Below, piece after piece: positions 3,411 through 22,886 of a stretch of 22,886 bases of DNA (position 1 is its first letter; each line of letters starts with the position of its first letter). The translations under genes were made by a program, and so were the position numbers. Source of the stretch: a virus; IMG/VR virus record IMGVR_UViG_3300043775_000535, positions 1 through 22,886 of that record. One strand, written 5' to 3'. Below the pieces are notes generated by a model. The model saw only the letters and a program-made list of their open reading frames with translations. It did no database searches and was not told the origin of the DNA.

Positions 3411-3635
3411 TCAAGTATTATTTAAATCGTTATCAGGATTTTGACTGCCATTCAATTCAACTCTGATTATTTCTTCCTCGCATTCGTCTTTTGTGCCTAC
3501 AAATAATGTTGTTGGAGTCGCAATGGACTCGTCTGTTTTTTCGTAGAAAATAATTGTTTTATCTTCATATGCCAATTTCCATTTGCCTATAGAATCGTCG
3601 TATGACCAGCCATTTGCGCTTGGAGTAATGATCAT
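3411..3635 (-). CDS. Small tail-region protein, unknown
   Basis: 74 residues, beginning [20 protein letters not shown], acidic in its second half (TKDECEEEIIRVELNG). No recognised domain. The Trp-rich start (NGWSYDDSIGKWKLAYEDK) resembles short beta modules at fibre ends. Its ATG overlaps the stop of the PATR-repeat gene by 4 nt (ATGA), so it is probably translationally coupled and may be an accessory or cap for that protein. Confidence 0.7.
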   Translation of the reverse strand: MIITPSANGWSYDDSIGKWKLAYEDKTIIFYEKTDESIATPTTLFVGTKDECEEEIIRVELNGSQNPDNDLNNT

Positions 3636-4495
3636 GGGACAGTAACTGACAGGGTTGAGGTAGCCGAATTATAGGTCGCTGTTGTTCCAGCAGGGACGCC
3701 TGTCAAAGTTGCTACGCCCCAAGTGCCTGATGTTGAACCTTGAAAGAAGCGAAATGTTGTAACACCAGACGGAGGTGAAACATTGAACGAAACAGCAATG
3801 AATGAGCCAGCCGAGTTAAATGTTGCGGTCGCGGTTGATGCTCCAGTTGTTTGGAACGCTCGCAAGAGTCCAGTAATAATTGTTTGCCCTGTGTAGGTTA
3901 ATGTTCCAGACAGAATAAGGGTTCCGTTGCCCGATTTGGTCAAATTTCCGCCCCCTGCAATATTACCCGTAATCGTTATCGTGTTTGCTCCAAGAGTGCG
4001 AATCTGAATTGCAGTAGTTAATTGAAAGGCGTTAGGTAGGGTTACACTACTCCCTGTATCAATTCGTCCTACAGCGTTAGACACAGTAAGAAGTCCCGTT
4101 CCAAAAGCATTGCTTGATGTGTATAATATATAAGCACTTGTTCCTGCGGCAACATACGATGTTCCTCCAGAGTAAGTATTATTTCCACCTAGTGTTAAAA
4201 TTGCCGCTCCAGACTTTGTTAACGACCCCGCTCCGCTAATTACTCCGTTAAGCGTTGATGCTCCCGTAACGGAAAGCGTTCCAGAATTTATTTGCGTTGG
4301 CCCCGTGTAATTGCAAGTTCCCGAAAGCGTGAGCTGGCCCGAGCCATTTTTTACAAGCCCGATAGTCCCAGAAATAGCCGCAGAAATGCTGGTCGCGGCA
4401 TAAACCATAAAATGACGAAACAATACCGATGAGGATGCGATACATCTAACCACGCTTGCCCCAACATTTGCCGCACTAGAATCCGTTAATTTCAT
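3632..4495 (-). CDS. Autotransporter-associated beta-strand (PATR) repeat protein
   Basis: 287 residues. Three PATR-like units (the TIGR02601-type repeat) are visible: residues ~45-76 ([21 protein letters not shown]), ~90-118 ([21 protein letters not shown]) and ~182-211 ([21 protein letters not shown]). These usually sit in the passenger beta-helix of large bacterial autotransporters. Here there is no signal peptide and no beta-barrel, and the gene is locked between a collagen-like fibre gene (ATGA overlap at 4492-4495) and the 74-aa gene (ATGA overlap at 3632-3635). A role as a short beta-helical virion fibre is the simplest inference. The repeats may have been taken from a host surface protein. 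Confidence 0.82.
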
Positions 4496-5232
4496 CCTAC
4501 AATTACATAGAGGGTATTGACATTTGGAGTCCCAATTAACAGATATCCCGCCAGTGTAATTTGAACCATATTAGTCAACTGAGTTGCGCCTGTTAGACCA
4601 GTTATATCCGAAAGAATAATATTTGCAGGAGTAAATCCTGTCGCGCCCGTTGCTCCAGCATCACCTTGAATCCCAGTTGAGCCAGTTGCGCCTTGAGTTC
4701 CAATACCAGTAGCACCCGTCGCTCCAGTCGAACCATCTAAACCGATATAACCACTTGCTCCTGTAGCTCCTTGAACTCCTGTTGCTCCGTTAATGCCAGT
4801 CGCGCCCGTTGCCCCCAAACCTGTAGCTCCAGTGGTTCCAATTACTCCAGTTGCTCCTTGAACGCCAGTTGCGCCAGTCGCGCCAATACCAGTTGCGCCT
4901 GTAGCTCCAACGCCTGTGGCTCCTATTACGCCTGTTGCTCCGTTAATGCCAGTCGCGCCCGTTGCCCCCAAACCTGTAGCTCCAGTGGTTCCAATTACTC
5001 CAGTTGCTCCTTGTGGGCCAACCACGCCAGTCGCCCCAGTAGTCCCCGCTCCCGTGGCCCCAGTAGCTCCGATTGGCCCTGTCGCGCCAGTAGGCCCAGT
5101 CGCGCCTATCCTTGCGTTCTGTAATGCACAATACGCTCGTTGAGCAGCTTCAGCACTTTGCCTTGCTGCCCGTGCATAAGAGGCTGCGAGTACCGTTGAA
5201 CCGCTACATGGATCAGAACAAGAATTGCTCAT
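4492..5232 (-). CDS. Collagen-like tail fibre protein
   Basis: 246 residues. The N-terminus [30 protein letters not shown] belongs to the Cys/Ala-rich family shared with the 137-aa and 101-aa proteins. Residues ~42-195 are almost uninterrupted Gly-X-Y triplets, mostly Gly-Ala-Thr, able to form a trimeric collagen-type shaft. The C-terminal ~50 residues ([19 protein letters not shown] ... [13 protein letters not shown]) form a non-collagenous cap. The repeat includes an 83-bp perfect duplication at DNA level. The dyad TATCGTAAACGATA abuts the ATG directly. Its stop overlaps the PATR-repeat start. A fibre role is inferred from repeat type and location. Confidence 0.9.
4778..4860. repeat. 83-bp perfect direct repeat, copy 1
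   Basis: Identical to 4931-5013, offset by 153 bp (17 collagen triplets, so in frame). It codes for Gly-Ala-Thr-rich triplets. Perfect identity, when the surrounding triplets vary at synonymous positions, points to a recent duplication or gene conversion. Confidence 0.9.
4931..5013. repeat. 83-bp perfect direct repeat, copy 2
   Basis: Second copy of the 83-bp unit within the collagen-like gene. Slippage or recombination between the copies would change shaft length by 51 residues without breaking the frame. Confidence 0.9.
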
Positions 5233-5954: not shown

Positions 5955-6109
5955 TTCTTTGTTCCTTTCGGTTCTGGAAGCTCATAAGTGATCCTTCCAA
6001 AGTCTGTCTGTAGTGAAATTCCAAGTGTCTCGCATCCAGTCAAAAATGCCATTGCGAGAAATGCAAGCGAAATTAAAATAAGTCCAAGTGCTATTTTTTT
6101 TGGTTTCAT
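5951..6109 (-). CDS. Small lipoprotein of the lysis cassette (possible spanin component)
   Basis: 52 residues. A lysine start (MKPKKIALG) and a hydrophobic stretch lead to the lipobox Leu23-Thr24-Gly25-Cys26, so signal peptidase II would leave a lipid-anchored peptide of about 27 residues (CETLGISLQTDFGRITYELP...). Size and place resemble Rz1-type outer-membrane spanin subunits, but no partner Rz-like coiled coil is evident, so the spanin reading is inference. It is flanked by two holin-like genes with 4-nt overlaps on both sides. A spanin would imply a Gram-negative host. Confidence 0.7.
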   Translation of the reverse strand: MKPKKIALGLILISLAFLAMAFLTGCETLGISLQTDFGRITYELPEPKGTKK

Positions 6110-6282
6110 TGTTTACGAATTTTGTTAAACATATAAACTATCGTCATAATTCCTGCAATTAGAGAAACAAATAATCCTCCAAGCCGTAAACCGGCTTCAA
6201 TGTGTGGCATTAAGCTAATCATAAATCCAGTAAAACTGGTTGTAGTTCCAATAATTCCAGTAAATGTCGTGTTGTCGTTCAT
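6106..6282 (-). CDS. Holin-like small membrane protein
   Basis: 58 residues, MNDNTTFTGIIGTTTSFTGF..., with hydrophobic segments at about residues 9-27 and 35-52 (LGGLFVSLIAGIMTIVYMF) and a basic tail NKIRKQ. Two membrane spans and a positively charged end fit class II holins. The stop overlaps the lipoprotein start (ATGA at 6106-6109); the ATG lies 4 bp after the stop of the 81-aa gene. Two holin-like proteins in one cassette suggest a holin/antiholin pair, but which is which cannot be told. Confidence 0.7.
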   Translation of the reverse strand: MNDNTTFTGIIGTTTSFTGFMISLMPHIEAGLRLGGLFVSLIAGIMTIVYMFNKIRKQ

Positions 6283-6286
6283 CCGT

Positions 6287-6532
6287 TTACAATGTTATTG
6301 GTTTCCACTTTACTTCTACCCTATCATCAAACCACTCAAGGTAGCTTTCCCATTCCGTTTCTGTGCCGGGAGGTTCTGATTTGATTAGCTCTACAAGCGT
6401 AGGATCAACCCAATCTTCTGGCACTGGATATGGTCGAATGGTATCAATCCGTGGATTGCCTTCATCGTCCAGCACAACACTGGAAAGATACTTGTCTCCG
6501 TTTGGAAATATGAGTCCGTATGTTTTAAGCAT
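6287..6532 (-). CDS. Small acidic protein, unknown function
   Basis: 81 residues, beginning MLKTYGLIFPNGDKYLSSVV and rich in Asp, Glu, Pro and Trp (PEDWVDPTLVELIKSEPPGT; EWESYLEWFDDRVEV). No membrane segment or known motif. It sits 5 bp after the 473-aa fibre gene and 4 bp before the lysis cassette, so it could be a fibre-assembly protein or the first lysis-operon gene. Function not assigned. Confidence 0.72.
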   Translation of the reverse strand: MLKTYGLIFPNGDKYLSSVVLDDEGNPRIDTIRPYPVPEDWVDPTLVELIKSEPPGTETEWESYLEWFDDRVEVKWKPITL

Positions 6533-6537
6533 AATAA

Positions 6538-7959
6538 TTATGTTCCGTAAGCTACTTCTACTGCATCAACCGAAGCTACCCAACGCCATGTTTCAGCAGC
6601 GATACCTGTAACCAAGATGCGAAGCGTGTCATCAGTGTTATTTGCAGAAAGCGCAATCGTTGTTCCTGCGGCGTTATCGGTTCCAATAGTCACTGGAGCG
6701 TAAACTTGTGAAGAGGTTCCACCAACATTCTTCACGCAGTATTGGCGCAAGTAGTGAGCTACGGCAGTTCCATCTGACTTGCTTCCAGTAATGTTAATTG
6801 TGCAGGCAATGATCTTTCCAGATGGAATTCCAAGATAAGTTGTGGCTCCGTCAAGTGCCATCTCAACTCCAGTATTTGTAGTTGTCTTGCAACGAAGGAC
6901 GAACCTTGCGCGTTGGGCATCGCCTAATGTAGAAAATACGCCGCCTGAGTGAGCTTGCATACTGAAACGATTTGCCTCCGCTCTATACCCCGAAAGAATT
7001 CCCGATCCAGCACCCGAAGCGGTGTTTCCCAAAATATTTGGAGATTCTGATCCTCCTCCGCATACTACAGCACCTTGGTTGGAGGCGACATTGTTGCGCC
7101 CTCCGCCAATAAAAGCATAACCTGCTGAAGTTGAGTTGCTTCGCCCTCCAGTTACTACGCTTGCACCAAAACCGCCTCCAGCAGCCGAGTTAGCCCACCC
7201 TCCACCAACAACAGAATAAGAACCCCCATCAGCTTTATTGGATGTTCCTCCTCCGATAAAACATAATTGCCCAGCAACCTCATTCGCATTGCTGCGTGAT
7301 GTCTGCAAGTCAACAGCATTTGCGCCCCTTGCATTCCCGCCAGTTGTTGTTCCATCTGGTTTTGGCCCAAGAATGAATGCCCCCGTGCCTTTCGGTGTGA
7401 GGACGAGCGCGGAATTGGTTTCTGCGGTGTTCTCGGAGAGGGTAACATTTGAAGATACGCTATGACCCGTGAGCAGCGTTCCTGCGGTAATGTTGGTCGT
7501 GAAATTAATTGCTCCCCCGCCAATGCTGGTTTCGAGCTTGAATGTAGCTCCAGAAACATCACGGACGAAATAGTTGGTAGTGGTGTTGAGTCCAGTCCCA
7601 CCTGTGAGCGCGGTGAATCGAACGGGTTGACCATTGGCAAACGCAGAACCTGTAGCTGTGATAACATCTGTTCCTGCATCTCCAGTTATTCCTGTAATCG
7701 AAACAATCGTATCTTCGACAATAAGACCAGAATTTTGCAAAGTAGCTCCAGAGGTTCCATCCGCACGAAGGATAGAATTATCAACTGGGCCTGTGGTAAT
7801 ACTTCCACCAGCAAAGTTCCATACAATACCAGTTCCCGGGTGTCTGAAATAAATCTTTTGATCTGTATGGTTTACTGCACCTTCACCCAAAGCAAGATTT
7901 GCAGTTGTAGGAATATTCCCAGCAACAATTGATTTTTTTAATTTTATAACATTAGCCAT
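6538..7959 (-). CDS. Tail fibre with YadA-like glycine-rich head repeats
   Basis: 473 residues. Residues 1-50 (MANVIKLKKSIVAGNIPTTA ... GEGAVNHTDQKIYFRHPGTG) match the 'KR-S...G.VPTTADLALGELAVN...KLY' fibre start common in marine and freshwater phages. Residues ~85-165 form a beta module with repeated TGGTGL/TTNYFV. Residues ~235-310 hold a glycine-rich array (CFIGGGTSNKADGGSYSVVG, GGWANSAAG, TGGRSNSTSAGYAFIGGGRN), resembling the left-handed beta-roll of YadA/Hep_Hag trimeric adhesins. The C-terminus is a globular beta cap. It likely forms a trimeric receptor-binding fibre (inferred). The leader is a G/C hairpin (7978-8005), then ATAACTTACC, then TAAAATC-ATG, without a Shine-Dalgarno. Confidence 0.88.
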   Translation of the reverse strand: MANVIKLKKSIVAGNIPTTANLALGEGAVNHTDQKIYFRHPGTGIVWNFAGGSITTGPVDNSILRADGTSGATLQNSGLIVEDTIVSITGITGDAGTDVITATGSAFANGQPVRFTALTGGTGLNTTTNYFVRDVSGATFKLETSIGGGAINFTTNITAGTLLTGHSVSSNVTLSENTAETNSALVLTPKGTGAFILGPKPDGTTTGGNARGANAVDLQTSRSNANEVAGQLCFIGGGTSNKADGGSYSVVGGGWANSAAGGGFGASVVTGGRSNSTSAGYAFIGGGRNNVASNQGAVVCGGGSESPNILGNTASGAGSGILSGYRAEANRFSMQAHSGGVFSTLGDAQRARFVLRCKTTTNTGVEMALDGATTYLGIPSGKIIACTINITGSKSDGTAVAHYLRQYCVKNVGGTSSQVYAPVTIGTDNAAGTTIALSANNTDDTLRILVTGIAAETWRWVASVDAVEVAYGT

Positions 7960-21316: not shown

Positions 21317-21353
21317 TGTACGAGCAATCGTGCCTTCGGGGTGAGAGCCGAAG
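21317..21353 (+). ncRNA. Two short hairpins in the replication-operon leader
   Basis: GTACGA-GCAA-TCGTGC (21318-21333) makes a 6-bp stem (one G-U pair) closed by a GNRA-type GCAA loop. Directly after, CTTCGG-GGTGAGAG-CCGAAG (21334-21353) makes a 6-bp stem. Neither has a T-run, so they are not terminators. They form the 5' part of a leader that ends in the three-way junction at 21389-21455. No known riboswitch family is recognised. Confidence 0.45.
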
Positions 21354-21386
21354 AAAAGTCAGGAGTTAAATTAACAAATAAAATAT

Positions 21387-21464
21387 ATGATCCCTTGTGG
21401 TGGTAAACCACTCTCATGCGTCAGTTGCCGCTTCCTGTCGCCATCACAAGGGATCGCCTTTTAA
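21387..21464 (+). CDS. Possible 25-residue leader peptide with CxxC
   Basis: ATG at 21387 to TAA at 21462-21464 would encode MIPCGGKPLSCVSCRFLSPS followed by QGIAF. It has three cysteines, two in a CVSC pair. The AGGAG at 21361-21365 is 21 nt before the ATG, too far for normal use, but the A-rich leader AACAAATAAAATAT just before ATG matches other starts here. The stop is 2 nt before the next ATG (21467), so reading it would reinitiate downstream. The whole ORF overlaps the three-way-junction fold, so it may be an attenuator peptide or chance. Confidence 0.35.
   Translation: MIPCGGKPLSCVSCRFLSPSQGIAF
21389..21455 (+). ncRNA. Potential three-way-junction RNA before the replication genes
   Basis: P1: GATCCCTTGTG (21389-21399) with CACAAGGGATC (21445-21455), 11 perfect pairs. 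P2: GTGG/CCAC (21400-21403, 21408-21411) with loop TAAA. P3: GCGTCAG (21418-21424) with CTGTCGC (21435-21441), 6 of 7 pairs. The junction is closed by TCTCAT and CAT. It ends 11 nt before the next gene's ATG. P1 is followed by GCCTTTTAAA, only four Ts. It may be a regulatory leader (cis element) or a small RNA; no family match is recognised by eye. Confidence 0.5.
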
Positions 21465-21466
21465 AT

Positions 21467-21781
21467 ATGAAAAGATATGACGATTGCCCAATAATGTTAA
21501 AAAATGGGATAATGATTAAACGCAAAATAATTCGCATCGGTGGATTGACTCCGTTGCAGCAAACATTATTAGCATATATTGAAAATTGGGATAGAGGGTG
21601 CGTAAATGATAAGGATTATTTAGCATTTATTTTTAATGTATCAAAAAAACGTATAAATTTGGCATTAGATATTTTAGCAGCTCAAAAATTTATCTATGCT
21701 GAAAAGAATTGCGATGAAGTAAAAATATTCTGCAACGTAAATTACATCAATGATGTTTATGGAAAGGGAATTGAAGTATGA
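21467..21781 (+). CDS. Small winged-helix-like replication-module protein
   Basis: 104 residues from ATG at 21467 (MKRYDDCPIMLKNGIMIKRK...). An in-frame ATG at 21416 would add 17 residues but lies inside the three-way-junction fold. Residues ~25-80 (LTPLQQTLLAYIENWDRGCV-NDKDYLAFIFNV-SKKRINLALDILAAQKFIYA) fit a small winged helix with a recognition helix SKKRINLALDIL. It probably binds DNA or partners the O-like protein. The stop overlaps the next start by 4 nt (ATGA). Short and without a firm family, so the role is inferred from context. Confidence 0.72.
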   Translation: MKRYDDCPIMLKNGIMIKRKIIRIGGLTPLQQTLLAYIENWDRGCVNDKDYLAFIFNVSKKRINLALDILAAQKFIYAEKNCDEVKIFCNVNYINDVYGKGIEV

Positions 21782-22506
21782 ACGAAAAGAATGAACGTAT
21801 TTTTCGCGGTGTTTGGGTTCCTGTAGAAATATGGGAATCTCAATCTTTGTCGTGGATGGAGAAATGTTTATGGGCAGAAATTAGTTCACTTGGAACTGAG
21901 GAAAAGCCATGTTTTGCAAGCAATGGTTATCTTGCAAAAATGTTTCACAGCACAGAGTCAAGTATTTCAAATATGATTTCAAAATTAAGGTCATTAAAGA
22001 TGATTAAACAAATTTCATATGATGGTAGAAATAGAAAGATTCTTGCTGTTCTACCAAACATGACTTCATCCACAGGTGAAGTCAGAGTTCACTCACAGGT
22101 GAAGTCTGACTCAACCCACAAGTGCAATCAGACTCAATCTGTAGATGAACTCAGACTCAACCCACAGGTGAACATAGATACTAGGGTAGATACTAGTAGA
22201 GATACTAAAGGAGAATTATCTCTTAATCTCTTAAATTTTCAGCAACGAGCAAACCAACTTCTCGGAAGACGCGATACTACAAACTGGACACCGAAAGAAA
22301 TAAAGGCAGCTAAACCCAACCTAGATACTTGTGAAGAAGACTGGAAGTTACTCGAAACATTCTATTCCAAACGAAGCGAAAAAGACGTTTACACTCGCCG
22401 TTCAATGGAAACGCTACTTAACAACTGGTTTGGCGAGATAGACAAGGCTCGCTCTTATAAAGAGCGTGAGAATGGTATAGGTTTTATTAACAATAATACA
22501 TTTTAA
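21778..22506 (+). CDS. O-like replication initiator (winged helix)
   Basis: 242 residues. Residues ~22-92 (LSWMEKCLWAEISSLG ... ASNGYLAKMFHSTESSISNM ... SKLRSLKMIKQISYDGRNRK) match the HTH_36-type winged helix of phage O-like and DnaD/DnaT-like replication proteins. Residues 98-136 are encoded by five 23-bp iterons and look low in structure (Ser/Thr/Val/Asp); DTRVDTSRDTKG (134-145) is encoded by three 12-bp repeats. The C-terminal ~80 residues (FQQRANQLLGRRDTTNWTPK ... RRSMETLLNNWFGEIDKARS) resemble the helicase-interacting tail. As in lambda, the initiator gene carries its own origin. A DnaB-type helicase gene follows 16 bp later. Confidence 0.85.
   Translation: MNEKNERIFRGVWVPVEIWESQSLSWMEKCLWAEISSLGTEEKPCFASNGYLAKMFHSTESSISNMISKLRSLKMIKQISYDGRNRKILAVLPNMTSSTGEVRVHSQVKSDSTHKCNQTQSVDELRLNPQVNIDTRVDTSRDTKGELSLNLLNFQQRANQLLGRRDTTNWTPKEIKAAKPNLDTCEEDWKLLETFYSKRSEKDVYTRRSMETLLNNWFGEIDKARSYKERENGIGFINNNTF
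22071..22185. repeat. Five 23-bp iterons, probable replication origin
   Basis: Units begin at 22071, 22094, 22117, 22140 and 22163, exactly 23 bp apart. The core is CACAGGTGAA (variants CACAAGTGCA, TGTAGATGAA), followed by a spacer with TCAGACTCAA in the middle units. Because 23 is not a multiple of 3 the encoded protein is not repetitive, so selection is at DNA level. The array lies in the O-like initiator gene, as the lambda iterons lie in gene O, and would bind that initiator. Confidence 0.88.
22177..22212. repeat. Three 12-bp tandem repeats beside the iterons
   Basis: GATACTAGGGTA, GATACTAGTAGA and GATACTAAAGGA run head to tail, overlapping the last iteron's tail. They share GATACTA at each start. 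The period is in frame and gives DTRV-DTSR-DTKG. They join the iterons to the A/T-rich stretch. Confidence 0.8.
22213..22240. other. A/T-rich stretch with 8-bp tandem repeat (possible unwinding element)
   Basis: Next to the 12-bp repeats lies an A/T-rich stretch with two copies of ATCTCTTA in tandem (22218-22225, 22226-22233), then AATTTT. Order iterons, short repeats, A/T-rich region matches the lambda origin, where the A/T-rich part opens first. Confidence 0.6.
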
Positions 22507-22522
22507 TAACAAAATCCTTCTA

Positions 22523-22886
22523 ATGAAAAAGACACCACTAATGAAAGTAGTCCCAATAGCCACCAAAAGCGAAGCGGCAGCGTTAGCTTTAATCGCAATA
22601 GACAGAAACATCCTCGCGCAACAAACGTGGGAGGTGGATTATTTCGCCCTGCCGCCCCACAGGAAGGTTTTTACCGCACTCCAAGGGGTTCACCAGCGGA
22701 CAGGGGCTTGTTGCCCGTTTTCTGCCATTGCTGAGTTAGAAGCTACAGGCGAGATCGAAGCGGCTGGAGGAGAGAACGAAGTCCATGAGATTCTTTCTAC
22801 CATGAAGATTGCTTCTGGGAAGGTCTGTCAAGATATGGCGGATGATTACCGCAAGCAGTTAGTCAGAAACAAAGGATACCGCGATG
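22523..22886 (+). CDS. dnaB-like: DnaB-type replicative helicase, N-terminal part (runs off right edge)
   Basis: From ATG at 22523 to the right edge, 121 codons and open. After a short tail (MKKTPLMKVVPIATKSEAAA) come LALIAIDRNILAQQTWEVDY-FALPPHRKVFTALQGVHQRT ... SAIAELEATGEIEAAGGENE-VHEILS. This follows the DnaB N-terminal domain pattern 'E..LLG.LL.D.......V....DF....HR.IF.A...L...G.......LA..LE..G....GG..YL..L'. The ATPase domain lies beyond the window. The second in-frame ATG at 22541 is a possible start. It sits 16 bp after the O-like gene, the usual initiator-helicase order. Confidence 0.82.
   Translation, partial: MKKTPLMKVVPIATKSEAAALALIAIDRNILAQQTWEVDYFALPPHRKVFTALQGVHQRTGACCPFSAIAELEATGEIEAAGGENEVHEILSTMKIASGKVCQDMADDYRKQLVRNKGYRD

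Follow-up and report, generated by a model that had tools for sequence, protein, structure and literature searches.

The viral DNA considered here comprises positions 1 to 22,886 of IMG/VR record IMGVR_UViG_3300043775_000535 (this whole 22,886-nucleotide stretch is 'the window' below), and it contains a repeat array within the linker-coding part of a gene for a replication initiator. Going by its sequence, the array is very probably the theta-replication origin of a phage, placed inside the gene of its own initiator, and we infer both that the initiator binds it and that it is active as an origin. Such an intragenic origin with its encoded initiator had been proposed in the initial annotation, and the proposal has gained from the constraint on the array, the design shared by relatives, PHROG matches, a RepA/DnaD-like fold and a DnaB-type neighbour. 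As in other intragenic iteron origins of phages, at least three direct repeats, about two helical turns apart, are inside an initiator gene and constrained as DNA. Repeats inside the initiator gene serve as origin in TP901-1 and Tuc2009, whose initiators bind the repeats in their own genes (PMC8965321), in SPP1 gene 38 (PMC6316719), in lambda and Stx phages (PMC7466680) and in pSK41 (PMC5703833). By analogy with lambda, P22 and staphylococcal plasmids, the array is best regarded as a clear new example of a known arrangement and not as a new kind of system.

The repeats and their symmetry

Five iterons of the plus strand, at an exact 23-bp spacing, have unit starts at 22062, 22085, 22108, 22131 and 22154. 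The cores quoted in the initial annotation, together with their exact period, were located just where it had placed them (22071, 22094, 22117, 22140 and 22163), the weakest being the fourth, TGTAGATGAA, and as the full 23-bp unit begins 9 bases 5′ of that core, the iteron array is 22062–22173. Three 12-mers and tandem 8-mers had also been claimed on the 3′ side and are there: AGATACTAnnnn starts at 22176, 22188 and 22200 (22176–22211, plus strand), and the octamer ATCTCTTA is in tandem at 22218–22225 and 22226–22233, within an A/T-rich stretch of the same strand at 22213–22242. TRF gave period 23 with 4.5 copies at 22070–22172, period 12 at 22174–22214 and period 8, as two copies of ATCTCTTA, at 22218–22234. 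Over 40 bases starting at 22200, A+T is 0.78, as against 0.50–0.60 across the iterons, and such an adjoining A/T-rich region is as expected of intragenic iteron origins, the unwinding itself being putative. The 12-mers are the probable start of the unwinding region, and 22213–22242 is a candidate duplex-unwinding element.

The best units of the window are interrupted dyads of the form GACTTCAC-N6-GTGAAGTC, units 3–5 being less symmetrical, and in the window and relatives alike the dyads are centred within the units. At locus L022 the arms are 9 bp, at L024 10 of 11 bases pair, and the L023 core, TTCACGCATGCGTGAA, is a perfect palindrome. A weight matrix built from the unit picks out the array on the plus strand, and on the minus strand it also scores units 1, 2 and 4. 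As the units are dyads and score on both strands, it is likely that one initiator dimer would occupy each.

Is this the sole origin? SPP1 has a distant oriR in addition to oriL in gene 38 (PMC6316719), and the array could be one of two origins, or a control locus that titrates the initiator, with a second origin outside what is a 22.9-kb record. However, the weight matrix found no other array in the window, where the next best site is far lower, and one array with no second in each of two 53–55 kb relatives (records that may be incomplete), so that this alternative is very unlikely. A cumulative GC-skew minimum had been predicted at the array, and this failed: in three 51–55 kb relatives, in which no terminal repeats were found, neither minimum nor maximum falls there. 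The skew of these relatives, which appears to track gene orientation, does not speak for a single origin at the array, and GC skew was rejected as an origin marker.

Constraint on the array as DNA

Does the periodicity belong to the DNA or to the protein that it encodes? The initial annotation held that the period is out of frame and the repeat kept as DNA, and codon phases, shuffles and synonymous differences agree on this. Successive units have codon phases 2, 1, 0, 2, 1, and the 23-bp repeat is thus out of frame. When the protein was kept and synonymous codons redrawn, identity at lag 23, which in the array is 63/88, was 39.0 ± 4.0 (maximum 53, n = 2000), and, over lags of 15–30, the highest-scoring 90-base window reached 64, as against maxima of 53 (1000 such shuffles) and 45 (300 dinucleotide shuffles of the initiator gene). 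Seven distinct, close and gap-free 242-aa alleles (the window, L005, L006, L015, L016, L017 and L019) differ by 0.389 per synonymous site in the N-domain and by 0.307 in the C-domain, but by 0.073 in the iterons and 0.051 in the 12-mer/8-mer stretch; synonymous change is about five-fold lower over the array than in the N-domain, and pN/pS, which is 0.03 in the N-domain, takes values of about 1 and 2.5 in the array. From the low synonymous difference in the iterons and the 12/8-mers it follows that the array is kept as DNA: over it, DNA is held constant while the protein drifts.

Could the repeat instead be a by-product of a low-complexity linker that was expanded by slippage, with no function as DNA? 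The linker is disordered in the AlphaFold model (pLDDT below 50 over residues 96–143) and tolerates amino-acid change, but with the period out of frame, a periodicity never reached by synonymous shuffles, and conserved sites that are the synonymous ones, hardly any likelihood attaches to slippage.

The initiator and its neighbours

The initiator gene (21778–22506, plus strand) is an open reading frame of 242 aa, and its product has a winged-helix N-domain (residues ~9–104), the disordered linker and a helical C-domain. It matches two PHROGs of replication initiation proteins, 2880 (E 3e-11, residues 14–126) and 270 (E 5e-11, residues 5–140), both matches spanning N-domain and linker. The O-like PHROGs 678 and 345 match only at 1e-3 and 5e-3, and Phage_rep_O (PF04492), which matches lambda O at 6e-36 and P22 gp18 at 7e-38, gave no match to it at E 0.1; the protein would thus work in the manner of ori-lambda without belonging to that family. 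A coronavirus-spike Pfam match (E 0.007, under the cut-off) was dismissed as chance.

The AlphaFold model (pTM 0.38) is good for residues 11–90. In comparison with PDB structures, the N-domains of staphylococcal plasmid RepA (4pql, 4pt7, 4pta and 5kbj) match over residues 9–106 with Z 9.0–9.6, those of DnaD with 8.3–8.4, and MarR-type and other winged helices also with 8–9, while a profile search of PDB sequences returned only weak matches, to MarR-type and similar regulators. As modelled, the fold of the N-domain is a winged helix. Since many other winged helices score close by, the link to RepA/DnaD is suggestive only. The C-terminal domain (22234–22503, plus strand) is exchangeable between relatives and is presumed to contact the helicase.

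The next gene (22523–22886, plus strand; PF00772 5e-7) is that of a DnaB-type replicative helicase, cut by the window end and 410 aa in relatives, and the full-length helicase of relative L010 (6729–7961) matches PF03796 at 3e-31 and phrog_19 at 3e-56. A DnaB-like helicase gene is 3′ of the initiator gene in L010, L015, L019, L022 and L024, as seen by eye and, in L010, identified. At L007 a methyltransferase-like gene (6025–6750, by eye) sits between the initiator and helicase genes. Upstream, a small gene (21467–21781, or 21416–21781, plus strand; phrog_270 E 0.019) overlaps the initiator start, and from its weak 22% identity to the initiator N-domain it is possibly a duplicated DNA-binding, or second winged-helix, domain.

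What stays and what changes in relatives

A first scan of viral contigs gave 24 loci. Close relatives retain five units, about two to three can be recognised in L022 and L024, and L023, L025 and L026 have another core (GCATGAGTGAACCCAGACTTCAC) with the spacing still 23 bp; the first ATAGATACTA of the 12-mers is found in most close and intermediate relatives. Across relatives the 22–24-bp spacing stays while iteron sequence, copy number and C-terminal domain vary. N-domain scans extended the set to prophages or contigs of Halomonas/Vreelandella, Pseudomonas, Endozoicomonas and Clostridia, and to phage records of Pseudomonas, Oceanospirillum, Lactococcus, Staphylococcus, Leptospira and Bacteroides. 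Linker repeats of 22–24 bp, often followed by ~12-bp repeats, are in most homologues (phages or prophages of Pseudomonas, Halomonas, Oceanospirillum, Endozoicomonas, Clostridia and Staphylococcus), and no array was detectable in the N-domain homologues of Leptospira LE1 and Bacteroides C3_41T2LP. Synonymous shuffling singles out the period at L019, L022, L023, L024, L052, L060, L068, L073, L074 and L076. It does not do so at L065 and L070, and the signal is weak at L058 and L066; the TRF units of these four are a mixture of 22 and 23 bp, to which a test at one fixed lag is blind. The 24-bp repeat of Staphylococcus SAP3 is in frame, with a marginal result.

The L022 and L024 N-domains are 77–78% identical to that of the window, with C-terminal parts that are unrelated beyond the array, i.e., the array stays with the N-domain where the C-domain is swapped. 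Such linkage of initiator and site, combined with an effector domain that can be exchanged, is what one expects of a lambdoid-type origin module.

A stand-alone 97-aa winged-helix gene is present at L051, L053 (there truncated by the contig end) and L054–L056. Two 23-bp dyads (AAACCTATAGGTTT) overlap or follow its stop codon, its neighbours are glycosyltransferase-like and not replication genes, and no helicase gene is nearby, so such a pair could also be a repressor and its operator. Might the repeats of the window then be operators through which the winged-helix protein represses or times its own gene or that of the helicase, with the origin elsewhere? MarR-type repressors have the same fold class, and the dyads just described show that 23-bp sites can accompany a winged-helix gene with no replication gene adjoining. 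However, all five sites of the window are mid-gene, the only nearby promoter-like match is on the opposite strand (22242–22215) in a region whose total is near shuffle expectation, the array is unique with none comparable near the operon's upstream leader, and the protein families and adjoining genes are replicative. Operators in place of an origin are therefore unlikely; a double role, origin plus operator, is possible.

Comparison with known systems

In P22 a rep_origin is annotated inside the O-like gene 18, with the DnaB-like gene 12 next, and the arrangement is like that of the window: the origin is in the initiator gene, and ~24-bp repeats are followed by shorter repeats, a tandem octamer and a DnaB-like helicase gene, which in P22 overlaps the end of the initiator gene. 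Gp18 is a Phage_rep_O member whereas the window protein is unmatched, and the repeat sequences differ. The O genes of lambda and Stx phages also have dyad iterons in mid-gene and then an A/T-rich region, but with iterons of CCCTCAAAACGAGGG type and a protein of the O family. In these phages the downstream gene is that of the helicase loader P, not of a helicase. Their iteron copy number is 4–6 (PMC7466680). The initial annotation had the iterons of the window differing from those of lambda in length as well as in sequence. The difference in sequence stands, whereas that in length was rejected, for the starts of the annotated lambda iterons are 20, 24 and 23 bp apart and the spacing in the window is thus ordinary.

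RepA (RepA_N) of pSK41/pTZ2162 is the best structural match to the N-domain; at the level of sequence, the PDB profile search did not match it to the window protein, and these Firmicutes plasmids differ in using the host helicase and in having four Rep boxes. In pSK41 the ori is centrally within rep and the protein part that it encodes is a dispensable linker, and in the chimeric Rep of pPR9, compared with pSK41, N-domain and origin were exchanged as one piece for a phage-type HTH_36 domain (PMC5703833). Among lactococcal phages, TP901-1 ORF13 and Tuc2009 Rep2009 are replisome organizers that, as proposed for the window, bind repeats within their own gene, and the Tuc2009 record carries the note 'contains origin of replication'; their repeat units, however, are 11–15 bp (TRF). 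Orf269/235 of phi31/ul36 share the N-domain of the window (34% over 90 aa), whereas the C-domains of the lactococcal initiators are others (DnaB_2, Rep_Org_C). Gp49 of Pseudomonas phage Skulduggery, Oceanospirillum GJ44 and Halomonas prophages have a related N-domain with 22–23-bp linker iterons and, in most, ~12–14-bp linker repeats, but differ in iteron sequences and C-domains, and in some gammaproteobacterial relatives the next gene is for a DnaC or AAA-family protein.

The tandem octamer

The slot of the octamer is occupied by two copies of ACCCCCTT in L023, L025 and L026 and by two of TACCCCCT in P22 gene 18. At the linker end, ACCCCCTT or a near form is in P22 gene 18 (L090), L023/L025/L026 and L068, and also in about 38 viral-contig initiator genes among L095–L168. 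Counted by exact-pattern sampling, with some duplicate phages and few alternative patterns, ACCCCCTTACCCCCTT is in 106 stretches of the viral collection as against 15 for a composition-matched tandem octamer; 44 of 80 fetched matches are in reading frames of at least 150 aa (30 read as TPLPP and 14, in another phase, as NPLTPL), in comparison with 2 of 19 for a shuffled octamer and 8 of 81 for a synonymous TPLPP pattern. None of those 8 control frames, when scanned, matches an initiator family, two being primase-helicases. The ACCCCCTTACCCCCTT proteins (n = 38) include 14 of PHROG 270, 9 of the O-like PHROG 678 and 11 of the primosomal PHROG 9327, and their Pfam domains are DUF1376 (8), HTH_36 (4), Phage_rep_O (3) and Lin1244_N (2). 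A tandem repeat of 20–26 or 42–48 bp is at most 260 bp upstream of 11 of the 80 matches, versus 2 of 356 positions drawn at random from these loci.

The slot in the window carries ATCTCTTA, not ACCCCCTTACCCCCTT, and among newly fetched viral loci ATCTCTTAATCTCTTAA, the octamer of the window, is in no long reading frame outside the window's relatives, so its exact sequence looks private to the group. A literature search for the octamer sequence found nothing related, as judged by title. It is conceivable, if somewhat doubtful, that the tandem octamer makes up a third DNA module in intragenic phage origins, common to initiators with different N-domain families (O-type, HTH_36, DUF1376 and Lin1244-type, with ACCCCCTTACCCCCTT in their linkers), and the helicase-primase might use it as a strand-specific site of entry or priming.

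A possible course of initiation

How would the array work as an origin? The initiator, probably dimeric, would bind each dyad via its winged helix, and five units 23 bp apart could assemble a nucleoprotein complex, wrapped or bent, whose strain would open the adjoining A/T-rich 12-mers and 8-mers on the 3′ side. The C-domain would then recruit the phage's own DnaB-type helicase, with the host replisome following. The linker being disordered, a site within it costs little, and this position would keep initiator and site linked during exchange of replication modules. The uncultivated phage group gains a precise candidate origin and initiator, and its relatives provide a comparative series, with spacing and order constant and iteron sequence, copy number and C-domain varying, in which the rule 'N-domain travels with its iterons, C-domain with the helicase' becomes testable. 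For metagenomic contigs in which GC skew fails, the sharp drop in synonymous change offers a simple means of locating phage origins.

The leader and a structural gene

Upstream of the initiator operon, a leader (21331–21462) has two conserved hairpins and is shared with L005, L006, L007, L010, L015–L017 and L019, its first part also with L025. For the stretch enclosing the long hairpin (GATCCCTTGTGG...CCACAAGGGATC, then a T-run) the folding z is −4.6, and in relatives six of the predicted pairs are changed on both sides; Rfam gave no match in the window, leader included. It is a candidate structured leader RNA or attenuator. Elsewhere in the window, on the minus strand (4492–5232 and 3632–4495), one structural gene has collagen-like GATGATG repeats, and the gene next to it has autotransporter-passenger-like repeats (SGxLxKxG...).
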